The translations under genes and the position numbers were made by a program. A DNA stretch of 64,000 nucleotides from Pseudomonas sp. CFBP13508 (GTDB lineage: Bacteria; Pseudomonadota; Gammaproteobacteria; Pseudomonadales; Pseudomonadaceae): the NCBI RefSeq assembly GCF_005233515.1, contig NZ_QFZZ01000002.1, positions 124,001 to 188,000 on the forward strand, given 5' to 3'. Numbering within the stretch: the stretch's first letter is position 1; the number at the start of each line of letters is the position of its first letter. Positions 1,847 to 26,365 of the stretch are shown here, one piece after another. A model generated the notes under the pieces. That model had not been told where the DNA came from. It did not search any database and saw only the letters and a list, made by a program, of their open reading frames with translations.

Positions 1847-3511
1847 GTGGAACGCGAATACATGGAATTCGACGTCGTCATCGTCGGTGCCGGCCCCGCT
1901 GGTCTGTCCGCCGCCTGCCGCTTGAAGCAGAAGGCCGCTGACGCCGGTAAGGAAATCAGCGTCTGCGTGGTCGAAAAAGGCTCCGAAGTCGGCGCGCATA
2001 TCCTCTCCGGTGCGGTGTTCGAACCCCGCGCCCTGAACGAATTGTTCCCGGACTGGAAAGAACTCGGCGCGCCGCTGAACACGCCCGTCACACGCGATGA
2101 CATTTTCGTGCTGAAAAACGCCGACAGTGCGCAGAAGATTCCTGACTTCTTTGTGCCCAAGACCATGCACAACGAAGGCAATTACATTATCTCCCTCGGC
2201 AACCTGTGCCGCTGGCTGGCTCAGCAGGCTGAAAATCTGGGTGTAGAAATCTACCCGGGCTTCGCCGCTCAGGAAGCGTTGATCGATGAAAACGGCGTAG
2301 TGCGCGGGATCATCACCGGTGATCTGGGCGTCGACCGCGAAGGCAACCCGAAAGAAGGCCTGTACACCCCGGGCATGGAACTGCGTGGCAAATACACGCT
2401 GTTCGCCGAAGGCTGCCGTGGCCACATCGGCAAGCAACTGATCAAGCGCTACAACCTCGACAGCGATGCCGACGTCCAGCATTACGGCATCGGCCTGAAA
2501 GAAATCTGGGAAATCGACCCGGCCAAGCATCAGCCAGGCCTGGTGGTGCACACCGCCGGCTGGCCGCTGGACATCATGGGCACCGAGAACACCGGCGGCT
2601 CGTTCCTCTATCACCTGGAAAACAATCAGGTGGTGGTCGGTCTGATCGTCGACCTGTCCTACAGCAACACTTACCTGTCGCCGTTCGATGAGTTCCAGCG
2701 CCTCAAGCATCACCCGGTGCTCAAGCAATATCTGGAAGGCGGCAAGCGCGTCAGCTACGGCGCCCGCGCCATCGCCAAGGGCGGCCTGAACTCGCTGCCG
2801 AAAATGGTCTTCAAGGGCGGAGCGCTGATCGGTTGCGACCTCGGCACCCTGAACTTCGCCAAGATCAAAGGCAGCCACACGGCGATGAAATCCGGCATGC
2901 TCGCGGCAGAATCGGTAGCCGATGCGCTGTTCGCCGAGCAGGATTGCACCGTCGAACTGACCACTTACGTCGACGCATTCAAGAACAGCTGGCTGCACGA
3001 AGAACTGTTCGCCAGCCGCAATTTCGGCCCGGCGATTCACAAATACGGCGCGATCATCGGCGGTGGTTTCAACTGGCTGGACCAGAACATCTTCGGCGGC
3101 AAACTGCCGTTCACCCTGCGCGACACCAAGCCGGATTACGCCTGCCTGAAGCTCGCGGCCGACTGCAAGAAGATCGACTACCCGAAACCTGACGGCAAAC
3201 TGAGTTTCGACAAACTCAGCTCGGTGTTCATCTCCGGTACCAACCACGAAGAAGAGCAGCCGTGCCACTTGAAGCTGACCGATCCGAGCATCCCGATCAG
3301 CAAGAACCTGCCGCTGTACGACGAACCGGCGCAGCGTTACTGCCCGGCCGGCGTATACGAAGTGATCACCAAGGAAGACGGCGAGAAGCGCTTCCAGATC
3401 AACGCCCAGAACTGCGTGCACTGCAAGACCTGTGACATCAAGGACCCTGCGCAGAACATCACCTGGGTGGCACCGGAAGGTGCCGGCGGCCCGACTTACC
3501 CGAACATGTAA
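1847..3511 (+). CDS. etf-QO: Electron transfer flavoprotein-ubiquinone oxidoreductase
   Basis: 554 aa, full length. A membrane-associated FAD/4Fe-4S enzyme that moves electrons from reduced ETF to ubiquinone. The dinucleotide fold GAGPAG is at residues 14-19; the 4Fe-4S ligands are in the C-terminal RYCPAGVYEV and NCVHCKTCDIKDP segments, and the protein ends GGPTYPNM as in the family. The start is GTG with TAGGAGA 6 nt upstream; the next ATG is at codon 6. It is monocistronic, followed by a terminator and a REPIN. It completes the ETF pathway with etfBA on the opposite strand. Confidence 0.96.
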   Translation: MEREYMEFDVVIVGAGPAGLSAACRLKQKAADAGKEISVCVVEKGSEVGAHILSGAVFEPRALNELFPDWKELGAPLNTPVTRDDIFVLKNADSAQKIPDFFVPKTMHNEGNYIISLGNLCRWLAQQAENLGVEIYPGFAAQEALIDENGVVRGIITGDLGVDREGNPKEGLYTPGMELRGKYTLFAEGCRGHIGKQLIKRYNLDSDADVQHYGIGLKEIWEIDPAKHQPGLVVHTAGWPLDIMGTENTGGSFLYHLENNQVVVGLIVDLSYSNTYLSPFDEFQRLKHHPVLKQYLEGGKRVSYGARAIAKGGLNSLPKMVFKGGALIGCDLGTLNFAKIKGSHTAMKSGMLAAESVADALFAEQDCTVELTTYVDAFKNSWLHEELFASRNFGPAIHKYGAIIGGGFNWLDQNIFGGKLPFTLRDTKPDYACLKLAADCKKIDYPKPDGKLSFDKLSSVFISGTNHEEEQPCHLKLTDPSIPISKNLPLYDEPAQRYCPAGVYEVITKEDGEKRFQINAQNCVHCKTCDIKDPAQNITWVAPEGAGGPTYPNM

Positions 3512-3531
3512 GTCGAAACGCTGAACAACAA

Positions 3532-3556
3532 GGCTCCCGAAATGGGGGCCTTTTTG
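3532..3556 (+). terminator. Terminator of etf-QO
   Basis: Stem GGCTCCC / GGGGGCC with a short loop (3532-3550), followed by TTTTTG, 20 bp after the stop codon. Confidence 0.8.
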
Positions 3557-3589
3557 TTGCCCAAAATTCCTCTGCCACCACAAAACAAC

Positions 3590-3679
3590 TGTGGGAGCGA
3601 GCCTGCTCGCGAAAGCGGTGTGTCATATAAAGATGATGTCGACTGATCCAGCGCCTTCGCGAGCAGGCTCGCTCCCACA
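3590..3679. repeat. REPIN (inverted pair of REP sequences, C variant)
   Basis: Left arm TGTGGGAGCGAGCCTGCTCG and its reverse complement enclose about 45 bp. This is the head-to-head REP doublet typical of fluorescent pseudomonads. It lies between the etf-QO terminator and the end of the AraC gene. Confidence 0.9.
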
Positions 3680-3695
3680 GGGGATTATCGGCGGA

Positions 3696-4586
3696 TCAGG
3701 CAGCGCGCTCTTCCCCCGGACTGCGTTCGAAGTAACGCTTGTATTCGCGACTGAATTGCGACGTGCTCTGATACCCCACCCGATGCGCCACCTGCGCCAC
3801 GCCCAGCCCCTCCGCCACCAGCAGCGTCTGCGCCTTCAACAAACGTAAACGCTTCAGATACTGCACCGGCGACAACAGCGTGCTGCGCTTGAAATGCTCA
3901 TGAAAGGTCGACACGCTCATGTTCGCGCAACCGGCCAGGGTTTCGACATTCAGCGGCTCGGTGTAATGCGCATGCAGATGGCTGATCGACGCCGCCACCC
4001 GGGCGAATTGCCCTTGTTGCTCGACCAACGCCCGCAACACATCCGCTTGCGGCCCGCGCAGCGCGACGAACAATAATTCGCGAACCCGCGCCGGGCCGAG
4101 AATCTGGCATTCCAGCGGATCGTGCAGACAGCTGAGCAGCCGCTCGACACAACCGCGCATGCCATCGTCGAGCACCACCGAGGTCATCGACTCCGGCGTC
4201 TGCGCCGGAATATGCCGACCCGGCGCCAGCCCCATGGCCAGCACCAGTTCGCCGAGCAGGACGCGATCGATCGCCACCGACACACCGAGCAATGGCGCAT
4301 CGGGCAAGGCAAAGGTTTCGCATTCGAACGGCACCGGCAGCGCCTGGATCAGATAATGCCCGGCGCCGTACTCCATGGTTCGTGGGCCGAGGAACGCCAG
4401 TTTACTGCCCTGGGCGATGATCATCAGGCTCGGCTCGTAGATATGCGGGCCACGGGCGACGTCGCAACTGGCGCGCAAAATCTGCACACCGGGCAGACCG
4501 GTCTGGCTGTAGCCATCGCGCAGCGCCAGCGGTTCGATCAGCGAAACCAGCCGGGCATTGGCATCAAGATGACGGGTCAACTGCAT
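3696..4586 (-). CDS. AraC-family transcriptional regulator
   Basis: 296 aa from the ATG giving MQLTRHLDANARLVSLIEPL; a GTG 24 bp upstream is the alternative start. The N-terminal half (about residues 15-185) is an AraC_N-type ligand domain (LMIIAQGSKLAFLG, YLIQALPVPFECE); the C-terminal 100 residues hold the two helix-turn-helix units (TLAGCANMSVSTFHEHFK and VAHRVGYQSTSQFSREYKR). It is divergent from a zinc alcohol dehydrogenase gene across 190 bp, so it most likely controls that gene. Effector unknown. Confidence 0.88.
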   Translation of the reverse strand: MQLTRHLDANARLVSLIEPLALRDGYSQTGLPGVQILRASCDVARGPHIYEPSLMIIAQGSKLAFLGPRTMEYGAGHYLIQALPVPFECETFALPDAPLLGVSVAIDRVLLGELVLAMGLAPGRHIPAQTPESMTSVVLDDGMRGCVERLLSCLHDPLECQILGPARVRELLFVALRGPQADVLRALVEQQGQFARVAASISHLHAHYTEPLNVETLAGCANMSVSTFHEHFKRSTLLSPVQYLKRLRLLKAQTLLVAEGLGVAQVAHRVGYQSTSQFSREYKRYFERSPGEERAA

Positions 4587-10038: not shown

Positions 10039-11028
10039 TTAACGGGATGAGGAATCGATCAGTCCGGCGGCGCGCGCCAGTTGCCACAAGCCACGCTCGG
10101 TGGCCTGCTCGGCCAACGTCACCTGAGCAAAGCCGCAGGCGTCGAGGGCACGGCGATATCGCGTGCACAGTTGCGCATTGCCGATGAGCACGATCGATGG
10201 AAGATTTGCTTGATTGCGCCGGCGCCGCTGCACATTGGCGAGCGCGGCCAGCTCATGGCCGATCATCAGGCCGGACAGATAATCCGCCTGAGCAGTCGGG
10301 CTCAGTTCACCGGTGAGGCCGAGGGTGCGGGCGCTGAACAAGGTCGACAGCACGCCGAGCTCAGCATCTGTCGACAGCGCAATTTGCACGCCGCGATCGA
10401 ACGCCTGCGCATCGAAGGTCGGGCTCGGCTGCTGAGTACGGCCGAGAATGCTGTGCTCGCTGAGCACGGCGAAGACTTCGCCAGTCATGAACGTGTCGAA
10501 ATGAGTGATGCGGCCATCGACCACTTCCACCCATTTCGAGTGGCTGCCGGGCAGGCCGATCAGCAGATCGCTACCCGCCTCGGCCGGCAGACTCTGCAGC
10601 ACGCCGAGGACTTGGGTTTCTTCGCCACGCATTACATTCGGCAGACGCGAACGCTGGATCACGCCCGGGACGATATGCACCGGCGTACCGCGCAAGCTGA
10701 CAACGGTTTGTAGGGAATTTCCGAGATGGGCGACGTCGGCCGGCGTCTCGCAGTAAGCCGCTTCGCGCCAGCCCTGCGCACTGCCGAGCATGCCGCAAGC
10801 GATTACCGGCAGATCCGGCTGCGCATCGAGCCAGTCACCACAGGCCTCGTCGAAGGCCAGTTCAAACCCATCGGCGCATTCACGGCCGTGGATGATTCGC
10901 GGGGTCTTGGGCAACTGCATGATCCCGGACGACAGCGCACGCTGCTCCAGCACCACACCGTCCGCCGCGAGTTTGTAAGCACGTAATGAGGTCGTCCCCC
11001 AATCGAGCGCGATCAATTGCGCCTGCAT
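10039..11028 (-). CDS. dgoK: 2-dehydro-3-deoxygalactonokinase
   Basis: 329 aa. It phosphorylates KDGal with ATP. The N-terminal phosphate-1 loop of the actin-like kinase fold is LIALDWGTTSLRAYKL. First gene of the dgo operon. The start ATG follows AGGTGAAGCG; this leader and the first two codons (ATG CAG) recur upstream of the sugar dehydrogenase at 26 kb. The protein is somewhat longer than E. coli DgoK, as I recall. Confidence 0.94.
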   Translation of the reverse strand: MQAQLIALDWGTTSLRAYKLAADGVVLEQRALSSGIMQLPKTPRIIHGRECADGFELAFDEACGDWLDAQPDLPVIACGMLGSAQGWREAAYCETPADVAHLGNSLQTVVSLRGTPVHIVPGVIQRSRLPNVMRGEETQVLGVLQSLPAEAGSDLLIGLPGSHSKWVEVVDGRITHFDTFMTGEVFAVLSEHSILGRTQQPSPTFDAQAFDRGVQIALSTDAELGVLSTLFSARTLGLTGELSPTAQADYLSGLMIGHELAALANVQRRRRNQANLPSIVLIGNAQLCTRYRRALDACGFAQVTLAEQATERGLWQLARAAGLIDSSSR

Positions 11029-11066
11029 CGCTTCACCTGTTTTGTTTTTGGCAGTGAGTGCGATGG

Positions 11067-11096
11067 ACTATAAACCCGAAGGATGTGAAATCTCAA
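11067..11096 (-). promoter_or_regulatory. dgo operon promoter
   Basis: On the minus strand TTGAGA (11096-11091), 18-bp spacer, TATAGT (11072-11067). Predicted start near 11060, about 32 nt before dgoK. Sequence and spacing are repeated at 26306-26335. Confidence 0.7.
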
Positions 11097-11110
11097 TATA
11101 TAAATATCAA

Positions 11111-11125
11111 TCCCATATTATGGGA
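11111..11125. promoter_or_regulatory. Operator palindrome of the dgo operon
   Basis: TCCCATATTATGGGA is a perfect 15-bp palindrome (7-bp arms, single central T). Its centre is 46 bp from the upstream edge of the -10 box, i.e. upstream of -35, which fits an activator or looping regulator of the IclR type. The same site at the same distance occurs at 26349-26365. Confidence 0.7.
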
Positions 11126-19165: not shown

Positions 19166-20164
19166 TCAACGCAAGGCCAACAGCCCCTGCACCAAAGGTT
19201 CAAGCTCCAGCTGATTAACAGTTTTCACCGTCTCGATCATCTGCTCCGGCCAGCATTCAAGCCCCAGGCAAGCCCCGAGCATGGCGCCGAGAATCGCCGC
19301 GATGGTATCCGTGTCGCCGCCTAGGCTGGCAGCCATGCATAACGCTTCGAATGCCGTCATTTCACCGATGGCCACTTGCTGGGCCAGGGCGAATGAAACC
19401 ACCACCGACTCCTGCGAAGCCACCGATGTGCCGATTACGTCGTAGAGCAGATCCGCCAGCAGCGCCTTGTCGCTGTCGACACTGATGCTGCGCGCCCAGC
19501 TGATGCGCGAGGCGATGCGCCCGCCGGCCACCCAATGCCCGTGCGCTTCGGCTTGCTGAGCGATCTGCTGGCCAAGGTTCAGCGCCTCGCCGAGATCGAC
19601 GTCATTGATGCCAGCGGAGACCACCGCCGCCACCGCCGCCGCACTGGAAATCCCCAGCGTGGTGTTATGCGTCACTTGGCAAGCCTGCACGACCGCCGCG
19701 ATGAAGCGCTGCGGATCGGCCACGTTCGCGGCAATGCCCACCGGGGTGATGCGCATCGCTGCGCCGTTGGTGGTGCCGTAGCGCCCGGCTTCTTCCGGGG
19801 AATGCCCGGCGAGGATCATTTCAATGGCGCGTTTGGTCGACGGGCCAAGCAAGTCCTGCGAGCCTTTGGCCTGCATCTCGGCTTCCCATTCGATCAAGCG
19901 TTGGGCGAGGACCGCCGGCTCGATGCGGCCGTGACCTTCGACCAACAACTCGCCGACCAGAATCGCCTGTTCGGTGTCATCAGTGATCGAGCCTTTGGGC
20001 ATGTTCGCGGCGATCGGTTGCAGTGGGCCAGCGTCTTGCAGATCAGTGATCTGGCCGAAGCGCGCCTTGATCGTTTCACGATCAAGCGACTGCGTCGGCA
20101 TGCCCAGCGCGTCACCCAGGGCCAGACCATAGAAAGCGCCAAGCGCACGGTTGAGCGCGGTCAT
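19166..20164 (-). CDS. ADP-ribosylglycohydrolase-family protein (YegU-like)
   Basis: 332 aa, starting MTALNRALGAFYGLALGDAL. The di-metal ligands of the family are visible in ALGDALG, GSITDDTEQAI near the N-terminus and LGGDTDTIAAILGAMLGA near the C-terminus. It cleaves N-glycosidic bonds of ADP-ribosylated compounds or related ribosides. The ATG overlaps the GntR stop codon (ATGA), so the two are translationally coupled. With the kinase it suggests salvage or breakdown of an N-riboside. Confidence 0.9.
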   Translation of the reverse strand: MTALNRALGAFYGLALGDALGMPTQSLDRETIKARFGQITDLQDAGPLQPIAANMPKGSITDDTEQAILVGELLVEGHGRIEPAVLAQRLIEWEAEMQAKGSQDLLGPSTKRAIEMILAGHSPEEAGRYGTTNGAAMRITPVGIAANVADPQRFIAAVVQACQVTHNTTLGISSAAAVAAVVSAGINDVDLGEALNLGQQIAQQAEAHGHWVAGGRIASRISWARSISVDSDKALLADLLYDVIGTSVASQESVVVSFALAQQVAIGEMTAFEALCMAASLGGDTDTIAAILGAMLGACLGLECWPEQMIETVKTVNQLELEPLVQGLLALR

Positions 20165-20874
20165 TTCGATTCTCCGAATTGCAGGTGCAGACGAAAGTGC
20201 ACCGGGTCGAGCAGGCTTTCGACCTGCTCCATGAAACGGTTCTGCCGGTCGTAGGTGGTGCGCAGGGCTTTGAGAAACACCGTGCCGACCGGACGGCCGA
20301 GCAGCTCGGCGTCTTCGGCATTCAGCGGCTCGGCGCCGATCCACTGATCGCCGCGCTCGCCGATATAGCCGTAGGCGGCCAGGGTGATGGTCAGGGAATT
20401 GTCGATCAAACCGACGCGAGGCAGGCTTTCCAGGCCGCCGTTGGCCGGCATCAAGGATCGTTCGAGAGACACCAGCGTACCGTCGGTGGCGCGCCGGCGA
20501 CGGTCGAGGGTGATGAATTGATCGGTGCCGAAACGCACCAGCAGATCCGGGCGAGTCACCGCCTCGAGACGCAACACTTCGGTATTGATCAGCGCCCCGC
20601 TGTCGGCCAACGCCTGCGCCCAGCCGCTGCGCTGATCCAGCGCGACGCCGTCGAAAGTGACGATGGAACCGACACCGCTCTGCGTGGCGATGTAATTACG
20701 CCGCTTCAGTTCGGCCAGCGCCTCACGCAAGGTGCCACGGCTGACCTGGAATTCCTGAGCCAACTGATGTTCGCCGGGCAACAGAAAGCCGTCCTCCATG
20801 AGGCCGCTTTCGATGCGTCGGACGAGCTCGTCGACCACCCTTTGTTTCTTGTCGAATCGTACCTGTCTAATCAT
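20161..20874 (-). CDS. GntR-family (HutC/UTRA) regulator, YegW-like
   Basis: 237 aa starting MIRQVRFDKKQRVVDELVRR (a Met two codons upstream is possible). The N-terminal winged helix is LAQEFQVSRGTLREALAELK (residues about 35-70), and the rest is a UTRA ligand domain. First gene of the four-gene operon, so it probably controls its own transcription. Confidence 0.87.
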   Translation of the reverse strand: MIRQVRFDKKQRVVDELVRRIESGLMEDGFLLPGEHQLAQEFQVSRGTLREALAELKRRNYIATQSGVGSIVTFDGVALDQRSGWAQALADSGALINTEVLRLEAVTRPDLLVRFGTDQFITLDRRRRATDGTLVSLERSLMPANGGLESLPRVGLIDNSLTITLAAYGYIGERGDQWIGAEPLNAEDAELLGRPVGTVFLKALRTTYDRQNRFMEQVESLLDPVHFRLHLQFGESK

Positions 20875-20956
20875 GTACAAATTGATAACCGAAACGGTGC
20901 GTGGCGGGCAACAAAAATTTGAGGGAGGTGACCGATGGGAAGAGCAAAATCAAAAG

Positions 20957-21541
20957 CCCCTCACCCTAGCCCTCTCCCGGAGGGAGAGGGAACTGATTGG
21001 GGAGTGCTCAGGAAATGCGCCGAACTGATGTTGCTTTAGCGAATCCACAATCGACCCGATATTTCAGGTCGATGTAGAACGCAGACACCTCGGTCGGCCC
21101 CCTCTCCCTCCGGGGAGAGAGAGGGAACTGATTGGGGAGTGCTCAGGAAATGCGCCGAACTGATGTTGCTTTAGAGAATCCACAATCGACCCGATATTTC
21201 AGGTCGATGTAGAACGCAAGACACTTCGGTCGGCCCCCTCTCCCTCCGGGGAGAGAGAGGGAACTGATTGGGGAGTGCTCAGGAAATGCGCAGAACTGGT
21301 GTTGCTTTAGCGAACCCACAATCGACCCGATCTTTCAGGTCGATGTAGAACGCAAGACACCTCGGTCGGCCCCCTCTCCCTCCGGGGAGAGAGAGGGAAC
21401 TGATTGGGGAGTGCTCAGGAAATGCGCCGAACTGATGTTGCTTTAGCGAACCCACAATCGACCCGATCTTTCAGGTCGATGTAGAACGCAAGACACCTCG
21501 GTCGGCCCCCTCTCCCTTTGGGAGAGGGCTGGGGTGAGGGG
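20957..21541. repeat. Tandem-repeat element: about four 136-bp units between inverted terminal repeats
   Basis: The landmark GGAGTGCTCAGGAAATGCGC starts at 21001, 21136, 21272 and 21408 (the third copy has one change), giving units of 135, 136 and 136 bp that are almost identical. Each unit has a hairpin CCTCTCCCTCCGGGGAGAG and an inverted repeat ATCGACC...GGTCGAT. The ends are inverted copies: CCCCTCACCCTAGCCCTCTC at 20957 and GAGAGGGCTGGGGTGAGGGG ending at 21541. It fills the gap between araH and the GntR gene. No coding capacity. Confidence 0.85.
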
Positions 21542-21553
21542 TAGCTTTTGACG

Positions 21554-22531
21554 TTAGCGCTGTTTCAAGCGGTCGATGACCACGGCCAGCAACAGAATCG
21601 AACCACGAATCACATACTGATAAAACGTATCGATGTTCTTCAGGTTCATCGCGTTTTCGATGATCGCCAGAATCAACACCCCGGCAATTACATGACGAAT
21701 CATGCCGATGCCGCCACTCAACGAAACCCCGCCCAGCACGCAAGCCGAGATCACCGTCAGTTCAAAACCCTGACCAATCATCGGCTGCCCGGAAGTCATC
21801 CGCGAGGCCAGAATCACACCCGCCAGCGCACCGATCAAACCATGCACGGCGAAGATGATGATCTTGGTCCGGTCAACGTTGACACCCGCCAGCAGCGCCG
21901 CTTCCTGGTTGCCACCGATGGCCATGGTGTTGCGCCCGTAGGTGGTGTAGTTCAGCAGCCAGCCGAAGAACAGGAAGCAGACAATGGTGATCAGGATCGG
22001 CACCGGCACACCGAAAAGCTGGCCGTTACCGAAGACGAAGAACGATTCCTGCGAAACACCGACCGCTTTGCCGTTGGCAAAGATATAGGCCAGACCGCGC
22101 ACGATCTGCATGGTCGCCAGCGTCGTGATCAAGGCATTGACGCGCAACTTGGCAATCACGATGCCGTTGATCAGACCAACGATCAGGCCCATCACCAGTG
22201 CTGCGCTGACCCCGAGAAACACGCTGTTGGTGTCACGCATCACCACCGCCGCGACCACGCCGGCACAGGCGATCACTGAGCCGACCGAGAGGTCGAAGTG
22301 CCCGGACGCCAGGCAATAAAGCATGGTGCACGCAGCGATGCCGGTGGTGGAAATCGCCAGACCCAGACCGCGCATGTTCAGCGGCGAGAGGAAGTTGTCG
22401 ATCAGCAAGGTGCAGGCGACAAAGATGCCGATCGCCGCCAGCAGCATGACCCAGTCATCGAGGAAGCGCCGCAGGTCCAGCGGTTTGCGCTCGGTCGGCA
22501 GGGTTTCGTTTTGCGTAGTCATCATAGTCAC
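21554..22531 (-). CDS. araH: Sugar ABC transporter permease (AraH-like)
   Basis: 325 aa, inner-membrane permease of the ribose/arabinose class with 8-10 spans. Typical segments are LASGHFDLSVGSVIACAGV and SACVLGGVSLSGGIGMIRHV. Last gene of the araF-araG-araH set, 3 bp after araG. The stop codon is followed 12 bp later by the tandem-repeat element, which may act as terminator. Confidence 0.92.
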   Translation of the reverse strand: MTMMTTQNETLPTERKPLDLRRFLDDWVMLLAAIGIFVACTLLIDNFLSPLNMRGLGLAISTTGIAACTMLYCLASGHFDLSVGSVIACAGVVAAVVMRDTNSVFLGVSAALVMGLIVGLINGIVIAKLRVNALITTLATMQIVRGLAYIFANGKAVGVSQESFFVFGNGQLFGVPVPILITIVCFLFFGWLLNYTTYGRNTMAIGGNQEAALLAGVNVDRTKIIIFAVHGLIGALAGVILASRMTSGQPMIGQGFELTVISACVLGGVSLSGGIGMIRHVIAGVLILAIIENAMNLKNIDTFYQYVIRGSILLLAVVIDRLKQR

Positions 22532-26096: not shown

Positions 26097-26251
26097 GGCT
26101 CAGGCCTCCTGCACGCAGGCGCAAAAAACCGGGCATCGGTCGATGTCCGGTTCTGACGGCTGGGGAAAACAAACAGGCAAGCGTCGCCGCCGGCATCAAG
26201 CCGTGACGAAAGGCGGATCCCGCTTGCGCGGGCGACAAGAATTCGCTGCAT
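26081..26251 (-). CDS. Possible 56-codon leader ORF ahead of the sugar dehydrogenase
   Basis: ATG at 26251 preceded by AGGTGAAGTG, a leader and start (ATG CAG) nearly identical to that of dgoK. The frame stays open for 56 codons (MQRILVARASGIRLSSRLDA...) and stops 12 nt inside the dehydrogenase gene. A terminator-like hairpin lies within it. It may be a regulatory leader peptide, or simply the remnant of a copied dgoK start. No homologue recognised. Confidence 0.35.
   Translation of the reverse strand: MQRILVARASGIRLSSRLDAGGDACLFVFPSRQNRTSTDARFFAPACRRPEPWLKR
26123..26150 (-). terminator. Terminator-like hairpin in the dehydrogenase leader
   Basis: On the minus strand CCGGACATCG-AC-CGATGCCCGG (26150-26129), one mismatch, followed by TTTTTT (26128-26123). 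It sits between the promoter at 26.3 kb and the start codon at 26096, so it would attenuate the dehydrogenase-araFGH transcript or mark the end of a lost gene. Confidence 0.55.
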
Positions 26252-26305
26252 CACTTCACCTGTTTTGTTCTTTTTAAGTGTGAGTGCGTGTTACTGCTGG
26301 AGCCG

Positions 26306-26335
26306 ACTATAAACCCGACCGCCAAATAATCTCAA
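26306..26335 (-). promoter_or_regulatory. Promoter of the dehydrogenase-araFGH operon
   Basis: Minus-strand TTGAGA (26335-26330), 18-bp spacer, TATAGT (26311-26306): identical boxes and spacing to the dgo promoter at 11067-11096. Predicted start near 26299. Confidence 0.7.
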
Positions 26336-26348
26336 TATATAATTTTGC

Positions 26349-26365
26349 ATCCCATATTTTGGGAT
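26349..26365. promoter_or_regulatory. Operator palindrome of the dehydrogenase-araFGH operon
   Basis: ATCCCATATTTTGGGAT, 17 bp with one internal mismatch. Its centre is 46 bp from the -10 edge, exactly as in the dgo promoter. It directly abuts the stop codon of the lactonase gene (26366-26368). Confidence 0.7.

Follow-up and report, generated by a model that had tools for sequence, protein, structure and literature searches.

Between araH and the regulator gene that follows it, the genome of Pseudomonas sp. CFBP13508 carries four almost identical repeat units in tandem, and the locus raises the question of how such an array came about and whether it does anything for its neighbors. We analyzed the array within the window (the whole stretch of 64,000 nucleotides from which it was read), and compared it with further copies in the same genome, with orthologous spacers in relatives, and with repeat families described in the literature.

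Anatomy and folding of the array

At 20957–21541, four units lie head-to-tail between inverted ends. TRF placed the array at 20979–21517 with a period of 136, 4.0 copies, 97% matches, and a score of 1008, the remaining seven TRF rows of the window scoring 84 or less. The sequence GGAGTGCTCAGG starts, once per unit, at 21001, 21136, 21272, and 21408, with spacings of 135, 136, and 136, and the initial annotation of four near-identical tandem units of ~136 bp at these starts is borne out by both the sequence and TRF. The cores are 94.5–98.2% identical among themselves, differing by substitutions and a 1-base indel; the copy number of four is provisional, as it is read from a draft assembly in 25 contigs. 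The array and its neighbors comprise the following features:

20161..20880, minus strand: gene for a GntR-type regulator, next downstream of araH on the same strand (NCBIfam GntR-type models, all below their cut-offs)
20957..20990, plus strand: left terminal arm, 34 bp, outer segment CCCCTCACCCTAG and palindrome CCCTCTCCC-GGA-GGGAGAGGG (sequence, inverted repeat, genome-wide terminus pattern)
20991..21099, plus strand: core of unit 1, 109 bp (sequence, TRF, core comparison)
21045..21078, minus strand: predicted core hairpin of unit 1, with counterparts in units 2–4 (fold −20.7 kcal/mol, z −5.8)
21100..21125, no strand: junction palindrome 1, 26 bp, without outer arms (sequence; fold −24.6 kcal/mol, z −2.4)
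21126..21235, plus strand: core of unit 2, 110 bp (sequence, core comparison)
21236..21261, no strand: junction palindrome 2 (sequence)
21262..21371, plus strand: core of unit 3, 110 bp (sequence, core comparison)
21372..21397, no strand: junction palindrome 3 (sequence)
21398..21507, plus strand: core of unit 4, 110 bp (sequence, core comparison)
21508..21541, minus strand: right terminal arm, 34 bp, palindrome CCCTCTCCC-TTT-GGGAGAGGG and outer segment CTGGGGTGAGGGG (sequence, inverted repeat)
21554..22531, minus strand: araH, L-arabinose ABC transporter permease (NCBIfam PRK11285, 511 bits, cut-off 378), its stop codon 12 bp from the array

The inverted-repeat arms (20957–21005 and 21493–21541) span 49 nt and are 80% complementary. 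Compared by eye, they match at 21 of the outer 22 bases and at 31 of the outer 34 (20957–20990 against 21508–21541); the inverted terminal repeats proposed on first reading are thus real, with a length of 34 bp in place of the 20 bp given there. Each end combines a palindrome of the form CCCTCTCCC-N3-GGGAGAGGG with an outer segment, CCCCTCACCCTAG on the left and CTGGGGTGAGGGG on the right. The outer arms are confined to the two ends of the array, the three unit junctions consisting of the palindrome only, which measures 26 bp at the junctions versus 21 bp at the ends. As the junctions lack outer arms, tandem duplication fits the anatomy better than the "nested palindrome element" that had been suggested. 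Without three of the repeats (585 − 3 × 136), the window element measures 177 bp with 34-bp ends.

Each unit had also been described as having two hairpin-forming segments, and folding recovered both of them: the junction palindrome (−24.6 kcal/mol, z −2.4, with 4 of 200 shuffles equally good) and the core hairpin (−20.7 kcal/mol, z −5.8, with 0 of 200). Folded singly, the two end arms did no better than shuffles (z −1.2 and −0.95). The entire 585-nt strand gave a z of −12.5, and none of 100 shuffles folded equally well. Other repeats are present in the window: a REPIN-type repeat (GTGGGAGYGAGC...) recurs at nine places within 3588–61726, and two repeat pairs ~15.2 kb apart (11023–11125 and 26246–26364) follow the same order, one being AT-rich.

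A dispersed family and its other arrays

A genome search for single units and terminal repeats had been proposed as a check, and both were found in numbers. With one mismatch allowed, the terminus pattern occurs 140 + 143 = 283 times in the own genome, and its reversed control 0 + 0 times. At least 66 unit matches were obtained, four of them forming the window array; of the others, the best reached 84% across 128 bases, and partial ones went up to 89% across ~80 bases (40 of the 137 first-look candidates scored). Among 84 own-genome loci, the best-scoring other core copy reached 81.5% over 108 bases. The copies are short, dispersed, bounded by terminal inverted repeats, and devoid of a transposase gene, in agreement with the earlier suggestion of a MITE-like family.

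The terminus is carried by 14 of 57 genomes (own included), all of them among the 36 of the same genus and none among the 21 others. Its counts across the 14 genomes vary between 1 and 358 without simply tracking relatedness, the closest relative compared (G033) having 32 and the more distant G019 358. A 40-base pattern of the left end was found in at least 118 stretches of named genome records, and all 80 listed titles were Pseudomonas, Pf0-1 not being one of them. Among the 80 listed of these at least 118 loci, the commonest class of terminus-to-terminus distances, the outermost C and G excluded, was 170–179 bp (27 pairs). When aligned, 46 element spans of 173–177 bp had a mean column identity of 87%; these spans, 10 from the own genome and 36 from named Pseudomonas records, were chosen by length (172–180), and some are array units. 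No phage matched the element. Seven plasmid records matched an end arm over 35–46 bases (five Klebsiella, one Escherichia, and one Variovorax), and in the four neighborhoods inspected no transposase element lay at the match, one having no listed feature; in one plasmid record, an ISKpn1 gene was seen ~0.5 kb from the end-arm match. The matches in Klebsiella and Variovorax records, among which L145, L146, and L148 extend over 35–37 bases at ~97%, mean that the arm sequence extends beyond Pseudomonas.

R6 of P. fluorescens Pf0-1 is listed with 177 bp, 34-bp inverted repeats, and 50 copies (Silby et al. 2009, PMC2718517, Table 3), and with no copies in SBW25 or Pf-5. As a single unit, the window element has the same 177 bp and 34-bp ends, and both are dispersed and intergenic; unlike R6 with its 50 copies in Pf0-1, the present family has 283 termini in this genome. 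By size and ends, rather than by comparison with a consensus, the window family is probably of the R6 kind, which is a strong lead and not proof. If it is R6, its spread would need no RAYT, as Pf0-1 is reported to have no RAYT gene (PMC3390384).

The genome-wide search for a helper covered the tyrosine (Y1_Tnp) transposases only, and we therefore term the element no more than "MITE-like": all four Y1_Tnp (RAYT-type) loci of the own genome are free of these termini within ~1.5 kb. A facing pair of termini 0.5–4 kb apart was found only once among the 80 listed of at least 118 loci, in an array with an IS3-like insertion. The ends read CCCCTCACCCTAGCCCTCTCCC and lack the GTAG/GTGG foot of the REP palindrome, they match none of the 22 PF classes in Table 1 of PMC3686654, and no title on bacterial intergenic repeats was among the literature matches listed for the end sequence.

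Tandem arrays recur in the family. TRF arrays with a period of at least 90 were present at 10 of the 50 own-genome loci sampled, window included (the window and L065–L113, from a grouping of the first 100 of the 283 listed termini). In one anatomy (plan A), the core and the short palindrome are repeated and the outer arms stand at the ends only (the window, L077, L081, L090, and L107, as well as L114–L119, chosen for neighboring unit matches outside the 50-locus sample); in the other (plan B), the full terminus is kept in every unit (L078, L079, L084, L095, and L121, and L122 and L123 of G019). G019, assembled as a single contig, has an R6-like array of 4.1 copies with a period of 132 bp and 98% matches in TRF, and a four-unit array was also read in its sequence; in Pseudomonas sp. 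DTU12.3, whose record bears the title complete genome, there are five units, the fourth interrupted by an IS3-like insertion. Assembly artefacts alone therefore do not account for such arrays. Elements that are IS3-like by ORF reading lie within R6-like elements of G035 (L037, ~2440–3717) and DTU12.3 (L214, ~1232–2460), and REP-targeting IS elements are known (PMC1525189). REP-type repeats are also arrayed, with two TRF arrays in 400 kb of the own genome (G000); at C2 ~209912–210499 (192912–193499 of the joined 400 kb; L274–L278), such a REP-type array has a period of 141, 4.2 copies, and 95% matches.

Orthologous spacers in related genomes

Sixteen relatives, one genome per species, had a GntR match of at least 61% (L031, L033–L047), the best matches of this gene being 61–100% identical and nearly full length. 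We used the seven with araH adjoining and G035, and left out the remaining eight, whose loci had no araH match. A single element, with no array, occupies the same place in G019, G011, G029, and G016, and unit number thus differs between related species, with four here and one in four relatives. G035 has the left part of one element, broken by an IS3-like insertion within which the locus ends, leaving the left flank only. Other palindromic repeats are found at the site in G033, G005, and G002; by eye, the one in G033 appears to fit REP class PF11 and that of G005 seems to resemble PF17 (classes as in PMC3686654, Table 1). None of the nine araH spacers, own included, is empty. Relative to the window, G016, and G029, the core is inverted in G019, G011, and G035 (L034, L035, and L037), where it shows 70–74 identities to the window core versus 80–84 in G016 and G029; with an inverted core and lower similarity, a separate insertion is as possible as an inversion of the core. 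A variant of the end, its terminal arm containing an additional block, ATCGGAACGCCGCCCG, was seen in L036 and L039 and also in the G019 spacer starting at C2 378999.

Target sites were checked against 400 kb of G033. From 59 loci of the own genome, we used the 13 whose flanks were collinear there (the one-sided hits of L069, L071, L073, and L106 were taken as paralogues and left out): three share the element (one partly), ten have another repeat (one degenerate), and no clean empty site was seen. For a wider comparison, we took spacers between orthologous neighboring genes, at least 40 bp long in at least one genome, from one 400-kb region each of G000 (C2:17001–417000; L267–L286), G033 (C1:5110001–5510000; L125–L144), and G019 (C1:4700001–5100000; L287–L306), using our own gene calls and five repeat classes assigned by consensus. 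In G000–G033 (186 spacers), the two genomes had the same class in 44 spacers, different classes in 19, a one-sided repeat in 14, and neither in 109; the corresponding numbers were 49, 14, 11, and 108 for G000–G019 (182 spacers) and 37, 22, 9, and 103 for G033–G019 (171 spacers). With same-class spacers removed, Fisher tests gave P values of 1.5e-12, 1.2e-10, and 1.1e-16, in which spacers are treated as independent, the classes are coarse, and a few repeats are missed by the consensus scoring; a looser first scoring of G000–G033 gave 48, 24, 11, and 103. In most cases, an orthologous spacer either holds a repeat in both genomes or lacks one in both, and the two repeats are often of different families in similar positions.

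Among 12 G000 spacers with an R6-like element, G033 has the same element in 2, a repeat of another class in 8, and no repeat in 2 (2, 10, and 0 with the looser scoring). In G019, the element is shared at 8 of 10 such spacers; of the other two, one has a different class and one no repeat. As G019 is the more distant of the two (mean nucleotide identity to G000 88.9%, versus 94.9% for G033), the simplest reading is an exchange on the G033 branch. Where the families differ, the distances from the left gene end differ by medians of 11, 16, and 20.5 bp in the three comparisons (17, 12, and 18 spacers), closer than with random placement (0 of 5000, 0 of 5000, and P = 0.0016). A correlation of left distances is present in each comparison, and that of right distances is only weak (P = 0.05, 0.27, and 0.20). 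In the spacer starting at 312657, PF20 in G000 and two REPIN variants in G033 and G019 are positioned within one base of each other.

The repeat GATCGTTCCCACGCTC, which we label REP3, is most numerous in G033. Its 10 G033 spacers are all occupied in G000 or G019, compared with 66 of 176 other spacers (P = 9e-5), and REP3 stands alone in 8 of the 10 and beside a REPIN in 2. In the spacer at G000 C2 243163–243251, REP3 is joined on the left to half a REPIN in G033 or half a PF20-type repeat in G019 with an identical right junction, and one half-repeat seems to have been swapped. Spacers without a repeat are not clearly the shorter ones when set against the residual length of occupied spacers (convergent 229 versus 59, tandem 101 versus 125, divergent 142 versus 115.5), and length alone does not mark the slots. 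Long import by recombination was considered and set aside: identity of the flanking genes is equal for different- and same-family spacers, with medians of 94.97 and 95.03 in G000–G033 (P = 0.65) and 89.62 and 89.09 in G000–G019 (P = 0.54). The data thus give no sign of long imports from distant strains; very close strains are a possible source.

These patterns could tentatively be taken to mean that repeat slots are fixed and almost always filled by a palindromic repeat, and that the resident is swapped in place for one of another family by a local, palindrome-driven process, expanding families entering mainly palindrome-bearing sites and the araH array being one occupant. Such exchange might proceed by hairpin-triggered breakage, template switching, or transposase-directed re-use of sites, as opposed to neutral re-insertion into permissive spacers. 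Permissive spacers that are quickly filled and emptied would also yield paired occupancy, although the scarcity of one-sided spacers and the matching positions make a simple form of such turnover less likely. The REP class next to orthologous RAYT genes has been described to undergo an "orthoswitch", with the suggestion that new variants might partly replace the originals (PMC3686654), and REPINs are reported to be excised and to insert into or next to others (PMC3116915); the consulted parts of PMC2817692, PMC8049555, and PMC3390384 hold no statement of REP-family exchange at one site. Among the open-access papers listed, no title or abstract start states family exchange at orthologous spacers. 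Older enterobacterial BIME work (Gilson, Bachellier) may describe similar cases. The comparison amounts to a testable claim on the turnover of intergenic repeats, in which occupancy is kept while family identity changes at similar positions, and it bears on whether REP-type repeats are parasites tolerated in safe spots or interchangeable 3′ hairpins.

Origin of the array and related systems

The window units are closer to each other than to the other copies examined and therefore arose locally, and the array is likely one non-autonomous, MITE-like intergenic element, probably of the R6 kind, multiplied in place from one unit to four. The end palindrome is its own reverse complement, and the inverted ends therefore double as direct repeats flanking the core. 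Slippage at the hairpin, or unequal crossing-over between two palindromes, could then duplicate the core together with one palindrome, and such a duplication would leave the outer arms once each at the array ends, which is the anatomy of plan A. We infer both this slippage or exchange step and the direction from one unit to four. Local multiplication draws support from the anatomy, the likeness of the units, the further arrays in the same genome, and the single orthologous elements in four relatives; against it, a genome with two or three units at the araH locus was not seen among those compared. The 26-bp junction is a misfit with the 21-bp end palindrome, and a small extra change presumably accompanied the duplication. 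The existence of plan B arrays implies that exchange between palindromes is not the sole route, and, because a different repeat occupies the site in G033, the nearest of the relatives compared, the single-unit ancestor is deduced from more distant species.

An array could also be built up by separate copies that insert, time after time and in a targeted way, into a resident copy or next to it. Some arrays do keep a full terminus in each unit, and one spacer of G033 and G019 holds chimeric repeats, but the window units are closer to one another than to any other copy examined and their three junctions lack outer arms, which makes this origin improbable here. We give as little weight to the copy number being an artefact of assembly: near-identical units are difficult for short-read assembly and the draft is in 25 contigs, yet the units are distinguished by substitutions and a 1-base indel, and a comparable array is present in the single-contig G019. 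The array is real, and in kind an ordinary local duplication.

A different proposal concerns function, namely that the array has been selected as a regulatory device at the 3′ end of araH (a terminator, an attenuator, or a 3′ stabilizer) whose unit number tunes expression. The neighbor had been named as araH, and the AraH model agrees with 511 bits over a cut-off of 378; as araH and the GntR-type gene both run leftward, transcription of araH would run into the array 12 bp past the stop codon. Hairpins are present on the transcribed strand, palindromic repeats of more than one family fill the araH spacer in all nine genomes, own included (in G035 visible only up to the insertion), and a Tail-repeat-Tail bias has been published for such repeats (PMC2718517). 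Termination of araH transcription, as put forward in the initial annotation, is nevertheless not supported by the search of 20850–21650, where no terminator- or promoter-like site was found, the terminator scan giving 0 sites on both strands; the array hairpins have no T tract, and a GC-rich stem followed by a T run does not occur. Rfam gave five matches of 15.7–19.7 bits against gathering scores of 40 and 68, which we take as chance. Covariation contributes −0.7 of −71.5 kcal/mol across the 46 sequences, with 4 of 46 predicted pairs changed on both sides; this counts against the device only weakly, as most pairs are near-invariant and the result tells little on RNA structure. The core at the orthologous site is moreover in the opposite orientation in G019, G011, and G035. 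A selected device thus seems unlikely, and the default reading is that the array does no more than contribute strong hairpins to the 3′ untranslated region of araH.

The array offers a clean case from nature of how an element bounded by palindromic inverted repeats could multiply in tandem without a transposase. Its features recur in several described systems. R0 and R2 of SBW25 likewise consist of a core within inverted repeats at high copy number, but insertion sequences with the same ends are reported for them and none was seen for the window family in the places examined (PMC2718517). The TIR families and TIRtrons (PMC3733652) share terminal repeats, some of them self-complementary, and occur as dimers or clusters, while none of the own genome's four tyrosine-transposase loci carries the present ends. 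Unlike REPINs, the window element has no GTAG/GTGG foot, no link to any of the four RAYT-type loci of its genome, and longer palindromes; like REPINs and tandem REPIN clusters (Bertels and Rainey 2011, PMC3116915), it has two inverted palindromes bounding a spacer, is non-autonomous, and forms tandem arrays, such arrays of REPINs having been published for SBW25 in the same work.
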